Shown: positions 42,742-46,409 of the stretch, piece by piece | How positions within the stretch are numbered: position 1 is the first letter of the stretch | How the letters are laid out: every line of letters starts with the position of its first letter | Assembly (NCBI GenBank): GCA_025056305.1 | Contig: JANWWJ010000005.1 | Coordinates: 1 to 46,409 of the forward strand | From: Chitinophagales bacterium | GTDB lineage: Bacteria > Bacteroidota > Bacteroidia > Chitinophagales > UBA10324 | Reading direction: 5' to 3' | DNA: 46,409 bases | The notes under the pieces: generated by a model | Databases searched by the model: none | What the model was told of the DNA's origin: nothing | The model's input: the letters and a program-made list of their open reading frames with translations, nothing else | Position numbers and translations under genes: made by a program

Positions 42742-44121
42742 ATGGACGTACAACCTTATTTGGAGCAACATAAACAACGTTTTGTGGAAGAATTGTTTGG
42801 CTGGCTGCGTATTCCTTCAGTGAGTGCCGACCCCAAGTTTCGAGATGATGTCTTTGAGGCAGCCGAATACGTACGCATGCGGCTGGAAGAAGCCGGAGCA
42901 GAACAGTGCCGGCTGATTCCTACCGAAGGATTTCCAATCGTCTATGCAGAGAAAACAGTTGGGCCTGAATTGCCCACGGTGCTCGTTTACGGGCATTACG
43001 ATGTACAACCTGCAGACCCATATGACTTGTGGCATTCCCCTCCCTTTGAACCGCAAGTTCGGGATGGAAAAATTTATGCACGCGGAGCCTGCGACGATAA
43101 AGGCCAAACCTACATGCACGTAAAGGCGCTTGAGTTGATGACCAAGACCGGTCAGTTGCCTTGTAATGTGAAATTTATGATTGAGGGAGAAGAGGAAATC
43201 GGTTCAGTACATCTGGAATCGTTTCTGCAAGAAAACAAGCAACTGCTTCAAGCCGATGTGGTTTTGGTCAGCGATACAGCCATGATCGGTTTGGACTGTC
43301 CGTCCATCACCATTGGCTTGCGGGGATTGTGCTATTTTGAAGTGGAAGTTACCGGCCCCAACCGGGACTTGCATTCCGGCACGTATGGCGGTGCGGTGGC
43401 CAACCCCATACAGGTGCTGGCCCGCATGATTACGGCACTAAAAGATGAAAATCAACACATCACCATTCCCGGTTTTTACGATGATGTTATTGAATACACA
43501 GCAGAGCAAAGAGCAGAGATGGCTCGCCGCCCTTTTGATTTGGAAGCTTATAAAAAAGAGCTGGGTATAGAGGAGGTGGAAGGAGAGGCGGGATTCAGCA
43601 CCATTGAGCGTACTACCATAAGACCTACGTTAGAGTGCAACGGTATCTGGGGCGGATATACGGGGGCCGGTGCCAAAACGGTATTGCCTTCCAGAGCCTT
43701 TGCAAAAATTTCATGCCGATTGGTGGCCAATCAACAGCCTGAAAAGATAGCTGAGTTGTTTGCTAAGCATTTTGTTTCGTTGGCACCGAAATCTGTAAAG
43801 GTGCAGGTGCGGTTGCTCAGTGCCGGAAGGGGGGTAATCGTTCCCACCGATAGCCTTGCCTATCGGGCGGCGGCAATGGCCATAGAACGCACCTTTGGCA
43901 AAAAGCCCATACCCACCATGGAAGGGGGCAGCATACCGGTTGTAGCTTCCTTTGAAAAGATTTTGGGGCTGAAAACGGCATTGATGGGTTTCGGTTTAGA
44001 TACCGATGCTTTGCATTCGCCCAACGAGAATTTCGGGCTGGCAAATTTTTTCAAGGGCATAGAGACGATTCCTTTCTTTTATCATTACTTCACCCAACTG
44101 AGCCAACAAAACGGTAGATAA
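42742..44121 (+). CDS. M20 family dipeptidase
   Basis: 459 aa. Zinc ligands and catalytic residues in order: His and Asp in VYGHYDVQPADP, Asp in RGACDDKGQ, the general base pair in IEGEEEIGS, Asp in LVSDTAM, and a late His in DALHSPNENFGL. Dimerisation (lid) domain about 190-350. Similar to cytosolic dipeptidases of the CNDP/DUG1 type; no signal peptide. Cleaves dipeptides or related small amides; the precise substrate is unknown. Confidence 0.9.
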   Translation: MDVQPYLEQHKQRFVEELFGWLRIPSVSADPKFRDDVFEAAEYVRMRLEEAGAEQCRLIPTEGFPIVYAEKTVGPELPTVLVYGHYDVQPADPYDLWHSPPFEPQVRDGKIYARGACDDKGQTYMHVKALELMTKTGQLPCNVKFMIEGEEEIGSVHLESFLQENKQLLQADVVLVSDTAMIGLDCPSITIGLRGLCYFEVEVTGPNRDLHSGTYGGAVANPIQVLARMITALKDENQHITIPGFYDDVIEYTAEQRAEMARRPFDLEAYKKELGIEEVEGEAGFSTIERTTIRPTLECNGIWGGYTGAGAKTVLPSRAFAKISCRLVANQQPEKIAELFAKHFVSLAPKSVKVQVRLLSAGRGVIVPTDSLAYRAAAMAIERTFGKKPIPTMEGGSIPVVASFEKILGLKTALMGFGLDTDALHSPNENFGLANFFKGIETIPFFYHYFTQLSQQNGR

Positions 44122-44211
44122 CATAGGAGCCGTGCGAAAATGTGTCAGCTTTTCAACCATATCGGGAAATAATTGCAGCCATTTCTGACAATTTTTTGCA
44201 TTACCGGGCAC

Positions 44212-44227
44212 TGGCACAGCAAATGCT
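44212..44227 (+). promoter_or_regulatory. Sigma-54-type -24/-12 promoter of groES-groEL
   Basis: TGGCAC, five bases, ATGCT, against the consensus TGGCAC-N5-TTGCW: 10 of 11 specified positions match, and GG and GC are exactly 10 bases apart. Start would be near 44238, about 50 nt ahead of the groES ATG. Upstream, AAAATGTGTCAG (44137-44148) and CTGACAATTTTT (44185-44196) form an inverted repeat (10 of 12) that could be an activator site. Confidence 0.55.
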
Positions 44228-44286
44228 ATAGGCAAGGCGTCAATTTGATTCACTTGAATCGTAAACCCAAAAAATCCAAAAAGACT

Positions 44287-44565
44287 ATGGCAAAGATCAA
44301 TTTCAAACCTAACGAAGATCGTGTGCTGGTACAGCCCGAGCCAGCCGAAGAAAAGACAGCTGCTGGAATCATTATTCCCGACACTGCTAAAGAAAAGCCC
44401 CAGCGCGGTAGAGTAGTCGCTGTGGGTGACGGCTCTAAAGACAAGCCGGTAACCGTAAAAGTGGGCGATCGGGTGCTCTACGGTAAATACGCAGGCACCG
44501 AGATCACGATTGACGGAGAGGAATACCTCATCATGCGCAATTCAGACATCTTTGGAACTTTTTAA
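44287..44565 (+). CDS. groES: Co-chaperonin GroES
   Basis: 92 aa from ATG 44287. Mobile loop [27 protein letters not shown] and C-terminal [13 protein letters not shown]. Seven-subunit lid of GroEL. groEL follows after 79 bp. No CIRCE element is seen in the upstream gap; a sigma-54-like promoter is. Confidence 0.97.
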
Positions 44566-44626: not shown

Positions 44627-46270
<1,644 letters not shown>

Positions 46271-46297
46271 GCCGATACCCAAACGGAAAGGCGGGGC

Positions 46298-46314
46298 GGC
46301 GCCCGGAGGGCGCC
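46298..46314 (+). terminator. Hairpin after groEL
   Basis: 7-bp stem GGCGCCC/GGGCGCC with loop GGA, 28 bp past the groEL stop. A run of C's, then TAATTTTTTAA, follows, so a T-tract is not directly adjacent. The sequence from 46313 on is low-complexity and may be unreliable, which limits the call. Confidence 0.4.
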
Positions 46315-46409
46315 CCCCCCCATAATTTTTTAATAAAAAAAATTTTTAAATAATGGGAGGGGGCCCAGTAGCCCGCGGCGTATCGGGGCATTGTTTTGCC
46401 ACGCGCCCA

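Follow-up and report, generated by a model that had tools for sequence, protein, structure and literature searches.

The HrcA/CIRCE system, in which a repressor acts together with an operator of the form TTAGCACTC-N9-GAGTGCTAA, is one of the models of chaperonin control. A sigma-54 type of control is also known for groESL operons, as groESL3 of Bradyrhizobium japonicum is under NifA/sigma-54 control. The closest described system is that of Flavobacterium psychrophilum, in which 5'-end mapping assigned sigma-54-type (SM4) starts to groES-groEL, dnaK, grpE-dnaJ, htpG, clpB, lon, skp and a rhomboid gene (PMC9723704). For this species, groESL control by sigma-54 is thus a published finding; three PF00158 proteins were reported there, and the sections of that paper considered here name no activator or box array (PMC9723704). 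In addition, a 2025 prediction study reported that chaperone genes (GroES, GroEL, DnaK, DnaJ and GrpE) were enriched under sigma-54 in Bacteroidota, and the parts of it considered here mention neither activator sites nor an HrcA contrast and propose no activator (PMC12316311). Chaperonin control in Bacteroidia has been traced to sigma-54 only recently, and in the portions of these sources used here the activator is unnamed.

Here, we have analyzed a stretch of 46,409 nucleotides from a Chitinophagales bacterium (contig JANWWJ010000005.1; hereafter the window), which carries the following features at and around its chaperonin operon:

42742 to 44121, plus strand: M20 family peptidase (Pfam), the upstream neighbor, outside the switch
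44212 to 44227, plus strand: predicted sigma-54 -24/-12 promoter element TGGCAC-N5-ATGCT (motif; 18/18 block in the congener; class-wide TGGYAYR)
44238, plus strand: predicted transcription start, 12 bases past the -12 C according to general sigma-54 geometry
44287 to 44565, plus strand: groES, 92 aa (Pfam Cpn10, E 8.7e-32)
44645 to 46270, plus strand: groEL, 541 aa (Pfam Cpn60_TCP1, E 1.1e-83)

The element (TGGCAC-AGCAA-ATGCT) is located in the gap between the peptidase gene and groES. It has the features of a sigma-54 promoter, that is, TGGYAYR at -24, a TTGCW-like -12 part and GG-N10-GC spacing (GG at 44213-44214, GC at 44225-44226, 10 bases between), and differs from TGGCACN5TTGCW by one mismatch. 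It starts 75 bp and ends 60 bp before the groES ATG (44287), so the first-pass annotation of this DNA, which had placed such an element about 60 bp ahead of groES with this spacing, was correct. No CIRCE was found in 44122-44286, again as first claimed, and the genome had no HrcA match either. A GATTCA-CT-TGAATC repeat at 44247-44260 was set aside, as it is not conserved in the congener. Behind groEL, at 46290-46360, a possible terminator of the operon was noticed: a G+C-rich inverted repeat (GGCGCCCGGAGGGCGCC) and a C run, with A+T-rich DNA after them. When the whole genome (2.41 Mb, both strands) was searched, 88 sites with no or one mismatch to TGGCACN5TTGCW were counted, against about 73 expected from base composition. 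Thus, the single site in the window is not significant alone, and it is conservation that makes it so. Genome-wide motif counts were dropped as evidence because they were near chance and most of the matches examined lay inside genes.

Comparison with relatives provided this evidence. In a congener whose GroES is 95% identical, the gap ahead of groES is diverged, and only a few blocks are kept: TGTGTCAGCTTTTC, GAAATAATTGC, CTGACA with a T run, CTGGCACAGCAAATGCTA, which covers the promoter element (18/18), and CGTAAACCCAAAAAATC, nearer the ATG. We then used groES upstream regions of 30 relatives and of 80 named records (including Flavobacteriales, Bacteroidales, Cytophagales and Chitinophagaceae), two sets that may partly overlap. 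In 101 of these 110 Bacteroidia sequences, TGGYAYR was present on the sense strand 25-130 bp upstream of the ATG, compared with 4/110 on the antisense strand, 4/109 in the region from -350 to -245 and a mean of 6.7 in dinucleotide shuffles. The longer motif TGGYAYRN4TTGCW, with up to two mismatches, was found in 80/110 (7.4 expected). Among the 106 aligned sites, a G at -13 with fixed spacing from GG occurred in 103. The -12 base was looser than in the textbook promoter (A in 51, C in 37 and T in 16; the window has C). Thus, Bacteroidia as a class keep the element ahead of groES, with its spacing and position. It was also observed that in seven of the 106 upstream regions a TAnnTTTG box directly follows the sigma-54-like element, possibly as overlapping promoters for two sigma factors. 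In eight others of the locus set, the element is closely preceded by a AATGCCAGC..GCTGGCATTTTT hairpin whose loop contains TGACA/TGTCA, perhaps a terminator and an activator site combined.

The first-pass annotation had made its reading depend on rpoN, and this gene was identified in the genome of the window with its RpoN box (ARRTVAKYRE) intact. It should be noted that rpoN is nearly universal in the phylum (388 of 392 genomes), so that rpoN-less controls are few and weak. Two rpoN-less genomes have both HrcA and CIRCE; a third has HrcA, and its groES upstream region is unreadable. In a sister-class genome in which rpoN was not detected, HrcA and CIRCE are both absent and a sigma-54-like site lies 135 bp ahead of groES. 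None of the 43 class genomes tested, among them that of the window, has HrcA. In the sister class 20 of 29 genomes have it, and these mostly carry CIRCE at groES in place of the sigma-54 element. The contrast with the HrcA/CIRCE model that had been drawn at the outset is therefore borne out on both sides, by the missing HrcA in the class and by CIRCE in the sister class. Several HrcA-less sister-class genomes have a TGGTAC..TTGCA or TGGCAC element ahead of groES; five loci from HrcA-less genomes of one family in that class carry TGGTAC-N5-TTGC[AT] 85-113 bp before groES. Judging from these motifs, sigma-54 control of groES may extend beyond Bacteroidia. At groESL, sigma-54 and HrcA/CIRCE tend to be mutually exclusive, and in Bacteroidia an activator-type switch would occupy the place of the HrcA/CIRCE repressor.

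Upstream of the promoter element, the window contains an inverted repeat with arms at 44133-44148 and 44185-44200 (16 nt, 81% complementary, 36 nt apart). Such a repeat around TGTCAG/CTGACA had been noticed before, with a length of 12 bp that did not hold. On the basis of the class-wide comparison, its use as a single operator was replaced: the arms would be half-sites of two outer dyads, with a third dyad between them. These predicted sites, scored with a palindromic model retrained without the window's family (7.0 to 9.3 bits), are:

44133 to 44149, no strand: activator-like dyad, center 71 bp before TGG, contains TGTCAG (7.9 bits; TGTGTCAGCTTTTC kept in the congener)
44141 to 44157, no strand: alternative register of the first dyad, center 63 bp before TGG (9.3 bits, family left out of training)
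44163 to 44179, no strand: activator-like dyad, center 41 bp before TGG (8.1 bits; GAAATAATTGC kept in the congener)
44184 to 44200, no strand: activator-like dyad, center 20 bp before TGG, contains CTGACA (7.0 bits; CTGACA kept in the congener)

The dyads coincide with the three blocks that the congener keeps upstream of the element, and they start nearer the promoter than usual enhancers. The window has roughly one site of at least 7 bits per 700 bp, so an isolated dyad elsewhere means little. A count of triple dyads in the window at the 7.0-bit cut-off gave no stretch, as the third site sits on the cut-off, and was not used.

Class-wide, CTGACA/TGTCAG was found in 69 of the 106 element-bearing upstream regions (4.5 in shuffles). 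The distances from TGTCA/TGACA to TGG were periodic, with a best period of 10.40 bp (R 0.69, n=168, 96 dereplicated sequences). Since kinship inflates simple p values, a shift control was used in which all boxes of one sequence were moved together by a random offset. The observed R was 0.665, against a maximum of 0.289 in 5000 draws, and within-sequence spacing is thus not the cause of the periodicity. A palindromic model trained without position information gave TGNCA-N3-TGNCA, again with a period of 10.4. The boxes occupy many different helical turns, up to about 100 bp before the promoter, and besides the TGNCA dyads no other conserved box was found in the groES upstream regions. A-tracts in these regions were phased too, more weakly. 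The inverted repeat is therefore better read as half-sites of separate putative activator dyads that are helically phased to the promoter. The early guess that it binds an activator appears right in kind, the repeat being part of a phased dyad array and not one site.

Four PF00158 matches were found in the genome, including two true bacterial enhancer-binding proteins (bEBPs) and two weaker ones resembling ClpC and ClpB. Thus, both activator proteins and upstream candidate sites (the phased predicted dyads) appear to be available to the promoter. The first, bEBP1 (456 aa, L056:8280-9650, minus strand), is an orphan NtrC-type response regulator of REC-AAA-HTH architecture. The usual loop of sigma-54 activators is GAFTGA, in place of which bEBP1 has GAFTSA. 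The second, bEBP2 (393 aa, G000:C31:124144-125322), consists of AAA+ and a Fis-type HTH and has no N-terminal sensor domain, so it would need a regulator acting in trans; free chaperones in this role are a speculation. Its gene lies in the order miaB-bEBP2-lptE-TPR-secG, in which the last three names were assigned from sequence. This array is followed by groESL in seven genomes of the order (bEBP2 55-68% identical), and about 36 of the 80 named records have TPR or lptE homologs no more than 1.5 kb upstream of groES. The genome of the window has bEBP2 and groESL at separate loci. bEBP2 was found in each of the 35 genomes of the class that were tested, and its recognition helix is near-invariant (GISERTLYRK in most), in keeping with the constant boxes. 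On balance, bEBP2 is, slightly more probably than not, the groESL activator. Among open-licence papers, we found no report of the activator candidate, the phased box array, the miaB-bEBP2-groESL synteny or the HrcA contrast.

We also compared the regions upstream of dnaK, the rhomboid gene, clpB and clpC (the last two named from sequence alone) in the same genome. The scan of other chaperone genes suggested in the first-pass annotation gave a mixed outcome: dnaK has an element (TGGCACATAGATTGAC) some 42 bp upstream of the start codon, together with dyads at around 18 and 30 bp, and the element of clpB is poor (TGGCATAATTGATCTT). The rhomboid gene has TGGCACTATTATTGTT 81 bp ahead and is without dyads, and no element was found upstream of clpC. 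Among elements common to two congeners before other genes, there was one clearly intergenic case, TGGCAT-N5-TTGAA (L210:1466 and L164:1501), which lies in the gap before a lipoprotein gene; a longer stretch behind the element is conserved as well. By its motif, this gene is a possible further sigma-54 target.

We propose that sigma-54 RNA polymerase would transcribe groES-groEL from the 44212-44227 element, with a start near 44238. The promoter would be opened by a bEBP bound to TGNCA-N3-TGNCA dyads on one helix face, positioned near -46, -67 and -97. The sensorless bEBP2, encoded between miaB and lptE and just upstream of groESL in many relatives, would be the likeliest activator, and the signal would be protein-folding stress. 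We give a sigma-54 and bEBP switch, as the whole explanation, a probability of roughly 0.85. The promoter element, its conservation, the phasing, rpoN, the absence of HrcA and the synteny suggest such a switch, and from there we infer the use of the promoter in this organism, the binding of a bEBP to the boxes, which bEBP it is and the stress signal. The original claim that groES-groEL is read from a sigma-54 promoter is likewise supported by the class-wide element, rpoN and the start mapped in F. psychrophilum.

A different account of the promoter would be that a primary-sigma promoter (sigma-A, TAnnTTTG) accounts for most groESL transcription, with the TGGCA element and the boxes bound by another regulator. 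The variable -12 base and the seven relatives with TAnnTTTG directly after the sigma-54-like element agree with this account, as does a weak TAnnTTTG-like TCAATTTG at 44240-44247. However, TCAATTTG is not kept in the congener and was all that was seen of a -7 box ahead of groES, which bears out the first view that the gap holds no good promoter of this kind. TAnnTTTG occurs between element and ATG in only 11 of the 106 upstream regions, the -13 G keeps its spacing from GG in nearly all of them, and mapping in F. psychrophilum puts groESL in the -24/-12 class (PMC9723704). We regard a primary-sigma promoter as quite improbable. A chance match, to which the near-chance number of sites in the genome would lend itself, is hardly credible, as it is already refuted by the class-wide conservation upstream of groES.

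If the promoter is of the sigma-54 type, the phased boxes might still bind a repressor or a DNA-bending protein instead of an activator. The nearest box is centered about 20 bp before TGG, where a bound protein could hinder polymerase, and the weaker phasing of the A-tracts points the same way. However, a repressor must overlap the promoter, sigma-54 promoters require an activator and only the TGNCA dyads were found conserved; boxes on many turns, to about 100 bp, suit an activator on one polymerase face better. Such a role for the boxes seems improbable. It is also conceivable, and in our view unlikely, that the activator is bEBP1 and the signal comes by phosphorylation. Apart from bEBP2, this protein is the genome's sole true bEBP, and its receiver domain could accept a signal. 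However, in the stretches examined its gene showed no linkage to groESL, unlike that of bEBP2, and the bEBP1 loop departs from GAFTGA. As for bEBP2, a wider and only tentative proposal, which we hold to be possible but doubtful, is that one ancient sensorless protein switches on groESL across Bacteroidia through a variable number of TGNCA-N3-TGNCA dyads, placed at whole 10.4-bp turns about 20-100 bp before the -24 box. This activator system would have taken over from HrcA/CIRCE when the class arose, and the activator would be controlled in trans, perhaps by free chaperones.

The phased boxes and the class-wide, groESL-linked bEBP offer a specific candidate for deletion and binding tests. Compared with the SM4 group of F. 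psychrophilum, the sigma-factor class, the operon and the phylum are the same, groESL lies under a -24/-12 element in the window as well, and dnaK and the rhomboid gene also have the element in the window's genome; the start was mapped there, according to the sections of that paper considered here, whereas it is predicted from sequence here (PMC9723704). Sensorless bEBPs of the PspF type resemble bEBP2 in having AAA+ and a Fis-type HTH and no N-terminal sensor domain, whereas the targets of bEBP2 would be chaperone genes. The B. japonicum groESL3 operon is likewise read by sigma-54 with an activator, but it is one special copy under nitrogen-fixation control, whereas the Bacteroidia operon is the sole chaperonin operon, class-wide. 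The HrcA/CIRCE system acts on the same operon and is used by sister-class genomes of the phylum, whereas its repressor is absent from the window's genome and its operator from the gap. If true, the proposed arrangement would make this chaperone switch an activator-driven one, which sets it apart from the sigma-32 and HrcA models.
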